DNA from: Tistrella mobilis KA081020-065 | GTDB lineage: Bacteria > Pseudomonadota > Alphaproteobacteria > Tistrellales > Tistrellaceae | Assembly (NCBI RefSeq): GCF_000264455.2 | Contig: NC_017956.1 | Coordinates: forward strand, 603,501 to 667,500 | Direction: 5' to 3' | Length of the DNA stretch: 64,000 nt | In this document: positions 24,839 to 29,280 of the stretch, piece by piece | Layout of the letters: each line of letters starts with the position of its first letter | Numbering within the stretch: the stretch's first letter is position 1 | The notes under the pieces: model-generated | Databases searched by the model: none | Told to the model about the DNA's origin: nothing | Seen by the model: the letters and a program-made list of their open reading frames with translations, nothing else | Program-made: the position numbers and the translations under genes

Positions 24839-25324
24839 CTACTGCCGCCCGCGCTGCCGCCAGGCCTCGGGCGGCGTGAACCGGCCGGCCCACAGGCCAC
24901 GGCCGGCGGCGCGGGCGTCGGCTTCCGGTGTGAGGTAAAGGCCGGAATAGCGACGATAGGCCAGCGCCAGCCCGTCGCGCACCAGCCGGGCGCCCAGATC
25001 CTCGCCGTTCGCCTGGCAGAGGGCGAGGGCGCGCTTATAGCGGTCGCGCCCTGTCACCACGCAGACCACCTCTCGTCCCTGTATGAGTGCACGCAAAGCC
25101 TCGCTTGCGGCCGCCCCGCAGGCCCAGGGCCGGCCTTCGCCGTCGGTACAGATCTGGTCCGTCTCCTGTGCGTCGATGCCGTAAAGCCGGACCCGCTCAC
25201 CCGCAACTTCCAATGTGTCGCCGTCGATCACCCGTGCTTCGCCGGCCAGTTCCCGGGCGAGAGCATGGGGCGACGCCAACGCCACCGCCAAGGCGGCGGC
25301 GCATGCCGCTCCTGTCCTTCTCAT
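24839..25324 (-). CDS. Secreted thermonuclease-like (SNase) protein
   Basis: 161 residues. An N-terminal signal peptide (MRRTGAACAAALAVALAS, cleavage near ALA at 21-23) is followed by an SNase fold: VIDGDTLEVAGERVRLYGID (R46, D51), AQETDQIC (E54) and RDRYKRALALCQANGEDLG with the second catalytic Arg. These residues match the Arg-Glu-Arg active site of staphylococcal nuclease. Two cysteine pairs may form disulfides. It is expected to act outside the cytoplasm on DNA/RNA, although many bacterial SNase domains have uncharacterised targets. The ATG at 25324 fits the signal peptide better than a TTG 12 bases earlier. Confidence 0.88.
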   Translation of the reverse strand: MRRTGAACAAALAVALASPHALARELAGEARVIDGDTLEVAGERVRLYGIDAQETDQICTDGEGRPWACGAAASEALRALIQGREVVCVVTGRDRYKRALALCQANGEDLGARLVRDGLALAYRRYSGLYLTPEADARAAGRGLWAGRFTPPEAWRQRGRQ

Positions 25325-25425
25325 CCGGTCCACCAACTGAAGCGCAGGACGGCGCGCCCGCCGTGAGATGCGCTTGAGCTTTTGGCTTGGTGGCCGGGGT
25401 TGAGAAAACCGTCACATGAGCGGCC

Positions 25426-25535
25426 CTCGGACCTTTAGGCGGAGCCTTGGACATACGTCCGAGCCCCCGGCCGCAAGAGCCAAGATAGCCGATTCCAGTT
25501 CGGCAGACCGCATGTGAAGGGGTTTCTCACGCCCC
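25426..25535. ncRNA. Structured repeat element, copy 1 (candidate RNA)
   Basis: A 110-bp unit with three potential stems: CTCGGAC (25426-25432) with GTCCGAG (25457-25463); GCCGA (25488-25492) with TCGGC (25500-25504); GGGG (25519-25522) with CCCC (25532-25535) around TTTCTCACG. Conserved single-stranded blocks are CCCCCGGCCGCAAG after stem 1 and ACCGCATGTGAAGG before stem 3. A second copy with changed but still pairing stems is at 25840-25953. Strand and function unknown; I do not recognise it as a named riboswitch. Confidence 0.5.
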
Positions 25536-25752
25536 AGGCACCGGCTGCGTCCTCCGGTTCCCGGCTCGACAATGCCATGACGGTGGGGATAACGGAAAGG
25601 AAAACCGCTCTATGCGCGGCCCGCGCGATAAATACTGAAGGATGTCGCAGCTTTTATTATTCTAGCCGCATGGAATATCGCGGTGCGGATGTATCCGGTG
25701 CTGAAATGCGGGGAAGTCCACCGCCAGGAAAACCGGCATGAAGACGCGTTGA

Positions 25753-25770
25753 GCGGAGGCGTACCTCCGC
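25753..25770. other. Perfect hairpin between the two repeat elements
   Basis: GCGGAGG (25753-25759) and CCTCCGC (25764-25770) enclose CGTA. The stretch 25325-26112 (788 bp) holds the two structured repeats and this hairpin. I see no credible coding sequence in it; the short open frames there lack ribosome-binding sites and family features. GC content falls sharply after about 25,980. Confidence 0.5.
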
Positions 25771-25839
25771 CCTTCGGTCATCATCCTGGACTGCCGAAGC
25801 TTCGACCGGGGGTATTCAGCCGATCATGCAATATCGGCC

Positions 25840-25953
25840 CCCGAACTTTTCAGGCCACCGCCCTTGGACATCGTTCGGGCCCCCGGCCGCAAGCAGTCGT
25901 CCGGCCTGGGGCGAAAAGGCCGGATTACCGCATGTGAAGGGTTTCTCACGCCC
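25840..25953. ncRNA. Structured repeat element, copy 2 (candidate RNA)
   Basis: Stems at the same places as copy 1, but with compensating bases: CCCGAAC (25840-25846) with GTTCGGG (25873-25879); TCCGGCC (25900-25906) with GGCCGGA (25918-25924); GGG (25939-25941) with CCC (25951-25953). The loops differ in length by 2-4 bases, while the CCCCCGGCCGCAAG and ACCGCATGTGAAGGG blocks are kept. Paired changes in three stems argue for selection on RNA structure or on a cruciform. Confidence 0.5.
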
Positions 25954-26112
25954 TGAAGCAGATTGCGGCGATCAGCTTCATGAGGGAGAATAGCAGAGAA
26001 ATAATAGTTTTAAAATGAAGAATAAGACAACTTATAGGAGTGGAGGAATTTTCTGCATAACTGAAGGACTAAGCAGCTCTATTGTGCGGCAAGCCGTCAT
26101 TTTATCAAGGGA

Positions 26113-26775
26113 TTATTTGTCAAATTCAAGTTCTAATTGTTTTTTATATTGGGCAGCTTGATAGTGCCAGATAAGTGAATCAAAATCACGCCGTGAAATA
26201 TCCAGTAAGTCCGCCGCAAAATTGAAGACGTCTCGGAGATAAGCGTAGCCGTTATTCTCCAGTCCCGCGAGTTCTGCGAAATTCTGAACGTGTCGATCCA
26301 CAGCGACACAATCCATGCCAACCAAGCATGCCATATAGTCAATGGTTTTGGGCCCTATACCGTGGATTTTCTGCAAACCTGAGCAAAAAGTCTCCTCCCG
26401 TAAAGACATTAGAAGTTCGTCAGTATTCTCAATTCGAGCATTTGATATAAAAGAAACTACATTCTCAAATCGGGATATTTTTTCATTATGCGTCCACTGT
26501 AGGAATTTTGAAGTTCCTTCATCCTGCATAATTTGTATTACCGAGCCAGTGGTCGATGCGTGAGGAAATCTTTCAAGTATGTAATGGATCCGGGGCCTTA
26601 TAATTTTCTCGTAACTTAGCCCTGCCTGAAGTGTAGCATCAGCTAGTACAGCGCCCATGTGGTGATAAATAGGTCTGCAGGGGGGCCGGTTCAGCATGAT
26701 GCCAGTCTCCACAGCGCGATCAGCAACGCGTCGTGCAGCATATAGTGCATCTATATACGTTAATTTTCGCGTCAT
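26113..26775 (-). CDS. Helix-hairpin-helix DNA-glycosylase-like protein
   Basis: 220 residues, last gene of a low-GC operon. The HhH motif HGIGPKTIDYMACLVGMDC has a lysine (K143) at the position of the Schiff-base Lys of endonuclease III/OGG enzymes, and AVDRHVQNFAEL supplies an aspartate (D160) at the place of the catalytic Asp. So both active-site residues of bifunctional glycosylases appear kept. The four-cysteine Fe-S loop of EndoIII/MutY is absent and the N-terminal half is unlike standard repair glycosylases. HhH/OGG-like proteins are known ancillary factors (Cap11) of type IV CBASS beside a QueC-like protein (Cap9), as here. I use ATG 26775 (GAGGAAA just upstream). Role in base excision or base transfer is inference. 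Confidence 0.75.
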   Translation of the reverse strand: MTRKLTYIDALYAARRVADRAVETGIMLNRPPCRPIYHHMGAVLADATLQAGLSYEKIIRPRIHYILERFPHASTTGSVIQIMQDEGTSKFLQWTHNEKISRFENVVSFISNARIENTDELLMSLREETFCSGLQKIHGIGPKTIDYMACLVGMDCVAVDRHVQNFAELAGLENNGYAYLRDVFNFAADLLDISRRDFDSLIWHYQAAQYKKQLELEFDK

Positions 26776-26788
26776 TTTCCTCAACCCA

Positions 26789-27409
26789 CTACACAGTGGA
26801 CGCTTCCGCTAAGGCTTTTAATCTCTCGACGCAGTTTGGACAAGCTCCGCACGGAAACGAGCTTGAGGCCTGACAAGAGAAAGTGCGACCGATTGGCACG
26901 TTAAGTTCCAGGGCTCGTCGTATAACATCAGCTTTAGTATTTTTTCGAAACGGTGCATGGAAACGCACAGCACCCACCCCCCTGGATAGCTCATCAAGAC
27001 CATTCATAAACTCGGTACTACAGTCTATTTCTTTGGCATGATTGCTATTGATAAAACCAGAATATACATCGAGAATTCCAAGAGTCTGTGCACGGGCCGC
27101 TGCCACGGCAAAGAATAGCATGGTCCGATATGGCAGGTAAAGATCATCATCTGATACTGACTCTCTCCAAAGATCTGCCTCGCAGATCATCCGAGAGCGT
27201 GATCCAATAAAAATGTCCGAAATATTTAGACGCTCAGGTCTTAAGACTTCTGGCGGCAGTAATTCATTAACATTTTTCCACTCTATCTCAACGCAATGCT
27301 GTCCATAGTCAAAAAATATTGGCTGAATTTTAATATCCATTTTGGTGAGTAGGTAGCACACAGTGGTTGAATCTAGGCCGCCCGAGACCATTACGACAGC
27401 TTTTTTCAT
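26789..27409 (-). CDS. QueC-like 7-cyano-7-deazaguanine synthase homologue
   Basis: 206 residues. PP-loop ATP pyrophosphatase motif VSGGLDSTT (8-16), a YLPYRTMLFFAVAAARAQ helix matching the QueC substrate segment, HAPFRKNTKADVIRRALELN, and a zinc site of C179, C187, C190 and C193 (SCQASSSFPCGACPNC). QueC turns 7-carboxy-7-deazaguanine into preQ0 with ATP and ammonia. This copy is low in GC, has no queuosine-pathway neighbour and shares an operon with glycosylase-like and deoxyribosyltransferase-like genes. Specialised QueC homologues occur in defence loci (Qat, type IV CBASS). Its start overlaps the stop of the fusion gene by four bases (ATGA). It could make an amide or adenylate of a related base; that is inference. 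Confidence 0.85.
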   Translation of the reverse strand: MKKAVVMVSGGLDSTTVCYLLTKMDIKIQPIFFDYGQHCVEIEWKNVNELLPPEVLRPERLNISDIFIGSRSRMICEADLWRESVSDDDLYLPYRTMLFFAVAAARAQTLGILDVYSGFINSNHAKEIDCSTEFMNGLDELSRGVGAVRFHAPFRKNTKADVIRRALELNVPIGRTFSCQASSSFPCGACPNCVERLKALAEASTV

Positions 27410-28737
27410 GGGTTGCCAGCCTGCAATTTTGATAGGACATCAAAAAGACCATTTAAGCATATATCGAGGTTGCTTGAATAAACGGTGCTCCCCACTATTA
27501 CCATAGTGTTGGCATTTTCTTGGAGCGGATCATAGGTAACTAGAGGCTTCTTATTTGCAATGGCCACTCCCATCTCGATAAGAGTACCCGGATCGCGTCC
27601 CAAAGGTAAGGCGAATACTACGGCACACTGACTGAGAATATTTAGGTCCTCGGCGTAAATTTTATGCATATGATGCTCCGCACTGTTAGGGTTGAGTTCT
27701 CCATTTTCTTGTATCGGCCTGCGAAGTAGGAAATTATGATAATTGAGGGCATTGATAACCTCCTCAATATACGTTCGATCTATGTATGAAAAATCGGGGG
27801 CTGCAAAGTATATTGGAAAAAGCCGTCGCACGTGCCAAGATAGATTTGTTCCTCCAAGATCACGCATTTGCTCGACTGTGAGTGCCAAGCTGCGTTGAAC
27901 ATCTCTCCGAAAATCGTCAGGGTATGTAGTTTGCGCATAGCATGTCGCAGCTCTCGCCGCTTTCCATGCTGCGCCGAATACGTCTGTGCTGATCAAGTAA
28001 GTAAATACAGCGGAATAAACATCACCTACGCCCACTGAATTGGTAGTTTGACCAAGAAGGGCTGGGACTTCGTCCCCTTGATCAGTACGGAGATCAAATA
28101 CCCGACTACCACCGCGATTTTCTTTCAAGAGAACAACATCCGGAGATAGGTGACGTAGGCAATTCAGCAGCGCCGATATATCATCCGATGCTCTTTCTAA
28201 AAAAAATCTGGAGGAAGTTGACGTAATAAGAGCAGATATCTGTCCTGAAAACGGGGAGAGAATATCAATATCGGGAATGTCGTAAGCGATATCTATGCTG
28301 ATCTGCGCCTTATCAGCTAATATATTCTTTAGGTCTCCGATGTTATATTTTCCTGGAAATATCAGGCAGGAACTATAATTTTCGAGATTTGCTTCGCCAT
28401 CATTTATTTCGCAATATTTCTCTTCTAGGAGAAGATCTTCATAGTTTTGGTCTCCAATTTCGAGAGGGTCCCTAATCACCATAACATTCGGGGCCCCCTT
28501 AACTTCTCCGAGCCATATGAAATTACTGCATTGAAGTTCTTGGAGGAAGTGGCGTGCTTGATCTACTAGATATCTTGGGCAGATCGCGGCTACTGCATAG
28601 CTGGCGTTGATAGCCCAGAGACCACGTGCTGCATGTATGATGCCACCAAGCCGTAACTTACTGCTTGTACCTGTCGTGGGTAGGGTAAAATCTATGTAAA
28701 TCTCGCCGATCAGTAGAAGTGCGGAATTTTCGCTCAT
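27406..28737 (-). CDS. PfkB-type kinase fused to a nucleoside 2-deoxyribosyltransferase-like domain
   Basis: 443 residues. N-terminal half (about 1-280) is ribokinase/PfkB-like: LIGEIYIDFTLP start, the glycine pair LRLGGIIHAARGL (about 28-40) and the catalytic anion-hole motif NSVGVGDVYSAVF with base D239. C-terminal half (about 305-440) resembles nucleoside 2-deoxyribosyltransferase: FPIYFAAPDFSYID, then DLNILSQCAVVFALPLG, RDPGTLIEMGVAIANKKP with D382 and E388, the latter at the place of the nucleophilic Glu. The pairing suggests phosphorylation and glycosidic-bond chemistry on one nucleoside. Its start overlaps the small upstream gene and its stop overlaps the QueC-like gene, each by ATGA, so the three are translationally coupled. 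Codon use is AT-rich compared with neighbours outside the island. Confidence 0.8.
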   Translation of the reverse strand: MSENSALLLIGEIYIDFTLPTTGTSSKLRLGGIIHAARGLWAINASYAVAAICPRYLVDQARHFLQELQCSNFIWLGEVKGAPNVMVIRDPLEIGDQNYEDLLLEEKYCEINDGEANLENYSSCLIFPGKYNIGDLKNILADKAQISIDIAYDIPDIDILSPFSGQISALITSTSSRFFLERASDDISALLNCLRHLSPDVVLLKENRGGSRVFDLRTDQGDEVPALLGQTTNSVGVGDVYSAVFTYLISTDVFGAAWKAARAATCYAQTTYPDDFRRDVQRSLALTVEQMRDLGGTNLSWHVRRLFPIYFAAPDFSYIDRTYIEEVINALNYHNFLLRRPIQENGELNPNSAEHHMHKIYAEDLNILSQCAVVFALPLGRDPGTLIEMGVAIANKKPLVTYDPLQENANTMVIVGSTVYSSNLDICLNGLFDVLSKLQAGNP

Positions 28738-29114
28738 GGTTCACCCGGGGCAAAATCAACGCTAATAGAAGTGAATGGAGTTGATGACGATGTTACGACT
28801 CGGCCCTTATAGGTGAAGCCCGCCACAATGCAATCCGCTATGTAGTTAAATTTTGTCGGTAAGGCGCCCACGGATTCTCCATTCGCGTCCACTGTGAATA
28901 GTCTCCGCTGATGTATTATGGATAAAATTGTATTCGTAGGCGGGGCGGATTTATGTTTTAAAAAATAGGAACAAAGCTCTACCTCTTCCAAAATGCAAGA
29001 GAATGCACGTCCACAACGGTCACCTCCGCTTGCGCCGCTACCAACTTCATTACCTGTTCCTTTCGATTGAGATCCTGGGTAGTCTGTTAACCTGCCAGAA
29101 CCGCTGCTACCCAT
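28734..29114 (-). CDS. Small protein with Gly/Ser-rich N-terminal tail
   Basis: 126 residues, first gene of the island operon. The first 32 residues form a flexible tail beginning MGSSGSGRLTDYPGS and rich in Gly/Ser. A compact domain follows: RCGRAFSCILEEVELCSYFL, SIIHQRRLFTVDANGESVGA, LPTKFNYIADCIVAGFTYKG, ending in SISVDFAPGEP. Five cysteines are spread through it. I do not know a function. The exposed N-terminal glycine after Met removal, and linkage to a QueC-like enzyme, make it a candidate substrate for N-terminal conjugation or a scaffold; this is inference. A strong AAAGGAGCG site precedes ATG 29114. Confidence 0.75.
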   Translation of the reverse strand: MGSSGSGRLTDYPGSQSKGTGNEVGSGASGGDRCGRAFSCILEEVELCSYFLKHKSAPPTNTILSIIHQRRLFTVDANGESVGALPTKFNYIADCIVAGFTYKGRVVTSSSTPFTSISVDFAPGEP

Positions 29115-29144
29115 GCCAGACGCTCCTTTGGATATGGTCCTTCT

Positions 29145-29177
29145 AGTTTATTTTTGGCGATACATATTAAATTTCAA
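29145..29177 (-). promoter_or_regulatory. AT-rich promoter-like segment of the island operon
   Basis: On the minus strand, TTGAAA (29172-29177 complement) and TAAACT/AAAATA (29145-29154 complement) lie upstream of the small Gly/Ser gene. Spacing is 17 to AAAATA or 21 to TAAACT, so the -10 box is imperfect. The segment is AT-rich compared with the surrounding chromosome, as expected for a transferred promoter. Confidence 0.35.
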
Positions 29178-29240
29178 GTGCATCTTCGATCGGAAGAGAG
29201 GGTCTTGGAGATGGCTGCGTCTTCGTGTCGGTGGTGCGCA

Positions 29241-29270
29241 GCGGCCGTGGCGCTCCCGCGCCACGGCCGC
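29241..29270. terminator. Strong hairpin after katG
   Basis: Perfect 13-bp arms GCGGCCGTGGCGC (29241-29253) and GCGCCACGGCCGC (29258-29270) around TCCC. It is 11 bases beyond the katG stop. No T-tract follows. It also marks the return to high GC at the right edge of the island. Confidence 0.65.
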
Positions 29271-29280
29271 CCGCCTCACC

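Follow-up and report, generated by a model that had tools for sequence, protein, structure and literature searches.

A mobile four-gene operon from Tistrella mobilis as a candidate third QueC-family protein-modification defense system

Introduction

In type IV cyclic oligonucleotide-based antiphage signaling systems (CBASS), the QueC-like enzyme Cap9 joins 7-carboxy-7-deazaguanine (CDG) to the N-terminal glycine of the cGAS/DncV-like nucleotidyltransferase, CD-NTase (PMC11996544, PMC13279940), and in the qatABCD system, both the N-terminal MGTS glycine of QatB and the active site of QatC are required for defense (PMC13279940). The substrate pocket of QueC and Cap9 contains a Tyr residue that stacks on the base and an Asp residue that reads its guanine edge (PMC13279940). 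The main text of Libby et al. 2026 describes a further group, Cluster 4, in which QueC-like proteins adjoin fusions of a ribokinase-type (PfkB) domain with a nucleoside 2-deoxyribosyltransferase (NDT) domain; it suggests purine salvage and mentions for this cluster no HIRAN protein, helix-hairpin-helix (HhH) gene, or defense role (PMC13329287).

This work describes a minus-strand four-gene operon at positions 26113-29114 of a 64,000-nucleotide stretch (the window) of the genome of T. mobilis KA081020-065 (NC_017956.1, positions 603,501 to 667,500). Its products, referred to below as SM, PN, QC, and HH, are a small protein, a PfkB-NDT fusion, a QueC-like ligase, and an HhH-type protein, respectively. 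The unit is real, widespread, and mobile. Taken together, the data make it somewhat probable that the operon represents a third QueC-family protein-modification defense system, which would be neither CBASS nor Qat.

Results

Conservation and spread of the operon

The features of the locus are listed below; pLDDT stands for the predicted local distance difference test, and ORF stands for open reading frame.

28734..29114, minus strand: SM (126-aa ORF), small protein with a disordered N-terminal tag and a HIRAN-fold domain, the proposed protein substrate; a relative adjoins the PN gene in 103 of 104 loci
29025..29114, minus strand: SM N-terminal tag region, residues 1-30, MGSSGSGRLTDYPGS..., delineated by low pLDDT and residue conservation
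28737..29012, minus strand: SM HIRAN-fold domain, residues 35-126, from Foldseek and VIA-align
27406..28737, minus strand: PN (443-aa ORF), ribokinase (PfkB)-fold domain fused to an NDT domain
27853..28737, minus strand: PN ribokinase-fold domain, residues 1-295, with GxGD239, from the model (pLDDT 91.4), fold comparison, and invariant residues
27514..27813, minus strand: PN NDT domain, residues 309-408, with nucleophile E388, from PF05014 (E 1.5e-14) and invariant residues
26789..27409, minus strand: QC (206-aa ORF), QueC-like ATP-dependent ligase with SGGxDS, YGQ, PxR, and Zn-type cysteines, from PF06508 and the PADLOC QueC model
26113..26784, minus strand: HH (223-aa ORF, TTG start), HhH/OGG-like DNA glycosylase-type protein with K146 and D163, from the PADLOC OGG model
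25054..29280, no strand: segment absent from the same-genus genome G001, from a blastn comparison between the window and the corresponding G001 region

Relatives of the operon were collected by scanning public genomes and viral contigs for the PN protein and adding plasmid hits, which yielded 104 loci with PN; the genome scan was keyed on one PfkB motif, and the locus numbers and spread are those of a sample. QC and SM were each found in 103 of these loci and HH in 95, and the loci without SM or QC (L027 and L051) are cut by contig ends. Such recurrence in ~100 loci is far beyond chance, and the four genes are a true unit. This survey of gene order upheld their co-occurrence, and conservation of the four genes together in distant bacteria agrees with the initial annotation of the window, made from its sequence alone, which had taken them for a self-contained system.

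In clade A, which includes the window, the order SM-PN-QC-HH is fixed and no other gene is constant. Members of clade B (20 to 30% identical) show the order HH-SM-PN-QC, or SM-PN-QC with HH opposite, often with an added fifth gene, and several clade B loci carry a second SM-PN pair. Two such pairs were seen in L060, L067, L069, L070, L074, L075, L077, and L090, most of which share one QueC-like gene, and the N-terminal starts differ between the two SM proteins of these double-pair loci. The presence in several loci of two SM-PN pairs around one QC indicates that SM pairs with PN.

The carriers belong to Proteobacteria, Spirochaetes, Planctomycetes, Verrucomicrobia, and Bacteroidetes and include a Haloarcula plasmid. 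The distribution is patchy, extending over diverse bacteria, Haloarcula, and plasmids, with 15 loci located on viral contigs. The annotated phage collection contained no PN match, and the E. coli genomes had no match to the Kosakonia operon. A class-wide PN profile search was swamped by PfkB and NDT genes of the housekeeping type; it returned full-length high scores only in genomes G000 and G040 and found no full-length PN like that of the window in the same-species genome G572. Partial-scoring PN relatives from the same genus and species (L165 and L166, at G001:C4:279651 and G572:C3:193708) have no SM or QC within the ~4 kb fetched.

In the window, ORF calls show the genes overlapping or nearly touching, with ATGA overlaps between consecutive genes at 28734-28737 and 27406-27409 and a QC-to-HH gap of 13 bp if HH starts with the ATG at 26775 and of 4 bp if it starts with the TTG upstream. 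The GC content is 44% across 26-29 kb versus mostly 63-70% in the flanks. The initial description of four packed, low-GC genes on the minus strand was thereby reproduced, from the coordinates and both overlaps to the 13-bp gap and the lower GC content. The same-genus genome G001 has ~112 bp in place of the segment 25054-29280 (blastn), which is consistent with a recent gain. Just past the HH end of the operon, three short direct repeats are found at 25456-26078 with a spacing of 416-426 bp, a pattern suggestive of the duplication of a short segment.

N-terminal tag and HIRAN fold of the small protein

SM has no Pfam match, and Pfam and PDB sequence searches gave nothing useful. In its AlphaFold2 model, based on 76 sequences, the first 30 residues are poorly ordered, while the core is confident and has the HIRAN fold. 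HLTF HIRAN structures lead the Foldseek matches (E 4.6e-4, probability 1.00), and VIA-align superimposes them on the SM core over 84-85 residues with Z of 9.6-10 and a root mean square deviation of 1.8-2.1; the respective Z values for other HIRAN domains are 11.9 (lp_0118), 9.0 (Rad5), and 7.8 (Hachiman HamB).

The disordered N-terminus of SM is as conserved as the core, judging from 29 clade A representatives. Its nearly invariant sequence, MGS[ST]GSGx[FL][ST]DYxG, includes G2 (present in 29 of 29 representatives), D11, and Y12, each at 100%, and S3, G5, S6, G7, and G14 at 93-97%. The Gly/Ser stretch previously described as a tail of the small protein is its N-terminus and not its C-terminal part. 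The disordered N-terminus with Gly2 is a trait shared with the partners of QueC-family enzymes that modify N-termini. CBASS and Qat have the same layout, a QueC-family enzyme accompanied by a partner whose N-terminus is disordered, conserved, and of the Gly-Ser type, and the best inference is therefore that QC modifies the N-terminus of SM. Attachment of a base had been part of the initial proposal; given the HIRAN fold and the conserved tag, the N-terminus of SM would be a likelier acceptor than DNA or tRNA.

A conserved, Gly/Ser-rich N-terminus could also belong to the precursor of a pathway for maturation of peptides, similar to that of ribosomally synthesized and posttranslationally modified peptides. 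Such a pathway would make sense of the SagB-like nitroreductase encoded in many clade B loci (TIGR03605 E 1.4e-10, below its cutoff). However, no YcaO, protease, or exporter was seen, clade A, including the window, lacks the SagB-like gene, and conservation in SM extends to a folded domain, which makes this explanation most improbable.

Catalytic residues of the three enzymes

All three enzymes retain their catalytic residues across the 95-104 relatives, and the identities initially assigned to them (PfkB-NDT, QueC-like, and HhH) hold. QC matches PF06508 with E of 2.5e-31 and the PADLOC QueC model with E of 8.4e-27 but stays below the QueC equivalog cutoff (90.6 versus 150.3 bits for TIGR00364). 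Essentially all QC proteins keep the ATP loop, YGQ, PxR, Asp129, and the Zn-type cysteines. The canonical QueC motifs YxQRHxxE and YPDC are each found in 0 of 103; Asp129 is kept in 103, and the Tyr position of YPDC is replaced (KEIDC or HxDG). The cysteines of clade A QC follow the Cap9-like spacing C[EQ](x)6CxxCxxC in 57 of 58 proteins, whereas the signature CH(x)5CxxCxGCxK is present in 44 of 45 clade B proteins and in none of the 58 from clade A. Cap9 fragments scored 57-60 bits against each of the QC and canonical QueC profiles, which does not separate the two. The possibility that QC is the queuosine enzyme of the host could be ruled out because the host genome has a separate queE-queD-queC cluster of its own, and QC was accordingly right to be set apart from the start.

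The first domain of PN matches Pfam PfkB only with E of 0.14, yet has a clear ribokinase fold, with Z of ~25 to ribokinases and nucleoside kinases; the second is recognized by PF05014. The kinase GxGD (D239) and the NDT nucleophile Glu388 are each kept in at least 98% of the relatives. This domain pair brings up the alternative that the NDT domain is a toxic effector that hydrolyzes NAD+ or nucleotides in abortive infection (Abi), with the QC-modified SM tag acting merely as a switch or inhibitor. NDT-like domains are retron effectors, and Carabias 2024 (cited in PMC12548924) reports NAD+-hydrolyzing Retron-Eco1 filaments in its title; NDT domains are also fused to Abi modules (PMC3710099), and the strict SM-PN pairing would fit as well. 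Still, the fused kinase keeps its catalytic GxGD, for which a pure NADase would have no use, and HH is left without explanation, so that an effector of this kind appears unlikely.

HH has no Pfam match and is recognized by the PADLOC OGG model (E 4.2e-7). Its K146, D163, and H165 are invariant in 95 relatives, with the Lys and Asp at what we take to be the positions of OGG1 Lys249 and Asp268. These OGG1-type catalytic residues, the resemblance of PN to a nucleoside-to-nucleotide module, and the presence of an Mrr nuclease or dGTPase gene at some of the loci would suit a system of nucleobase DNA modification or restriction, in which PN converts a base made by QC to a nucleotide and HH acts on DNA, unmodified or modified, by taking the base out or by cutting. 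We regard this as quite unlikely, as no polymerase-, TGT (tRNA-guanine transglycosylase)-, or DpdA-like DNA inserter was seen and the invariant N-terminal tag of SM is given no reason.

Genomic context and partner genes

At E <= 1e-10, the 122 proteins flanking the clade A operons matched 302 PADLOC models, Septu PtuA/PtuB and dGTPase among them, versus 6 models for 120 background proteins; this comparison counts models, not proteins, and is inflated by redundant models, so that its direction is clear and its ratio inexact. Prophage genes (DUF6441 and phage capsid) are frequent neighbors. In clade B, the core is followed by genes for a dGTPase, Mrr nuclease, patatin, or the SagB-like nitroreductase. 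HD-domain dGTPase-type genes also face the clade A operon at L028:3599-5083 and L029:8731-10149, each beside a second gene of similar size. In PADLOC 2023, no one system matches all the genes; the matches are limited to the QueC and OGG models, and PN and SM have none. The genomic context (PADLOC-rich flanks, partner genes, and viral contigs) favors the anti-phage role that had initially been raised as a possibility, and it is this context that speaks for it.

The PADLOC OGG search, aimed at type IV CBASS loci, led to other OGG-like loci without QueC. A repeated three-gene unit at L159:4740-6346, L160:5521-7105, and L161:4587-6226, in three genomes of one family, encodes an integrase-like protein of ~195 aa, a ~120-aa protein, and an OGG-like protein of ~200 aa, and looks like another uncharacterized OGG-linked element.

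In three clade B loci from Rhodobacterales, a gene for a VUT-family transporter, annotated for queuosine salvage, comes after the SagB-like gene that follows the operon (L011:6895-7536, L063:7895-8536, and L065:7895-8536). These transporter genes keep a deazaguanine link possible. Together with the pairing of a QueC-like protein with PfkB-NDT, they could also be accommodated by purine salvage, the role proposed for Cluster 4 in the main text of its description (PMC13329287). On the other hand, the distribution is patchy and mobile, the flanks are defense islands, the link to SM is strict, and the nuclease, patatin, or dGTPase partners vary; we therefore consider purine salvage very unlikely for this operon.

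Discussion

Proposed mechanism and the substrate question

If the operon is a QueC-family protein-modification defense system, Met would be removed from SM, after which QC, on its SGGxDS/Zn core, would adenylate a carboxylated substrate and couple it to the N-terminal amine of Gly2, as Cap9 does with the CD-NTase. PN, strictly paired with SM, would next read or extend the tag, a role comparable to that of Cap10, the TGT-like reader in type IV CBASS; its NDT domain might transfer deoxyribose onto or off the attached base, which its kinase domain might phosphorylate. The HIRAN domain could bring the tagged SM to DNA (ends or damage), and HH, with its OGG1-type Lys/Asp pair, could excise a base or nick DNA. 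The dGTPase, Mrr nuclease, or patatin of some relatives would be a possible extra effector, and the outcome would be a block of phage or plasmid DNA. The chemistry of the tag may differ from the known deazaguanylation.

Several points weigh against this scheme. The order in which PN and HH act is a guess. Clade B SM proteins mostly start with MSG[SG]GG or similar, with Ser2, not Gly2, in most. An NPxD-like sequence of HIRAN domains was not seen in SM by eye, so that DNA-end binding is putative. The base-stacking Tyr of the YPDC motif, found in QueC and Cap9, is absent in 103 of 103 QC proteins. Finally, 14 of 49 carrier genomes are without QueE and canonical QueC, 11 of the 14 also without QueD, so that CDG, the Cap9 substrate, is apparently not made there, although such absence calls are imperfect: in the control, QueE was detected in 7 of 8 genomes with canonical QueC and missed in G168. 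The window host, with its queE-queD-queC, would have CDG available. Because of the carriers without the CDG pathway and the loss of the stacking Tyr, the substrate of QC is probably not CDG, or else it is imported. Of the initial proposal that a deazapurine-like base is made, moved, or attached, attachment by QC is thus retained, whereas a deazapurine from the ordinary pathway has lost ground.

A more specific version is tentative and rather doubtful: QC would attach a carboxylated non-CDG base to the HIRAN protein at its N-terminus, after which PN would add deoxyribose and phosphate, giving a protein-linked nucleotide. By the same doubtful token, this nucleotide could be joined into DNA ends or compete at them, with HH as an eraser or trigger. 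If true, it would be a new kind of protein modification.

If the protein-modification reading is confirmed, conjugation to N-termini by QueC-family enzymes would prove to be an immune strategy of general use and no peculiarity of two systems, and QueC-type conjugation would gain an acceptor with the DNA-related HIRAN fold. The question posed by qat, namely which group is attached by QueC-family enzymes with a changed CDG pocket, would become directly testable, as many carriers seem unable to make CDG.

Comparison with known systems

A combined-term literature search found no description of such an operon; its coverage of subscription papers is thin, and an earlier description elsewhere is possible. 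Cluster 4, as presented in the main text of PMC13329287, likewise has a QueC-like gene beside a PfkB-NDT fusion, and clade B QC carries its Cys signature, in contrast to the 0 of 58 QC proteins in the clade of the window. The present analysis offers an alternative to the purine salvage published for that cluster.

SM residues 35-126 share the fold of the HIRAN domains of HLTF, Rad5, and the C-terminal domain of Hachiman HamB. Unlike these, SM is a stand-alone protein with a conserved N-terminal tag, and the sequence of the DNA-end pocket is not evident in it.

Type IV CBASS similarly combines a QueC-like ligase and an OGG/HhH protein with a partner that has a Gly-Ser N-terminus; the clade A QC shares the Cys spacing of Cap9, and PADLOC OGG and QueC models match the window genes. 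The differences are the HIRAN fold of the window-type acceptor, the presence of PfkB-NDT, and the lost stacking Tyr of the CDG pocket. CD-NTase (PF18144) was found in 12 of 50 carrier genomes and, judging by position, never in the operon, the nearest lying ~7.8 kb off in G184, and the match in the window genome is on another contig. Ordinary CBASS is ruled out by the absence of CD-NTase from the loci. No TGT is found near the window operon; in the window genome, the one carrier in which TGT was searched for, the sole match (C1:1746431) is ~1.1 Mb away. The cyclase and TGT genes were thus rightly reported missing here.

In qatABCD, too, a QueC-family enzyme is linked to a partner with a disordered N-terminus and a conserved start, and the substrate pocket is remodeled; the layout of SM is like that of both known immune partners of QueC-family enzymes, which start with MGGS (CD-NTase) and MGTS (QatB). 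However, QatB is helical and SM has the HIRAN fold, while QatC has ~400 aa with N- and C-terminal extensions versus the 206 aa of QC, which scores 16.4 bits against a cutoff of 280 in NCBIfam QatC. The clade A unit SM-PN-QC-HH contains neither the QatA ATPase nor the QatD nuclease. With a partner, companion enzymes, and a QC subgroup that differ from those of CBASS and Qat, the operon is assigned to neither.

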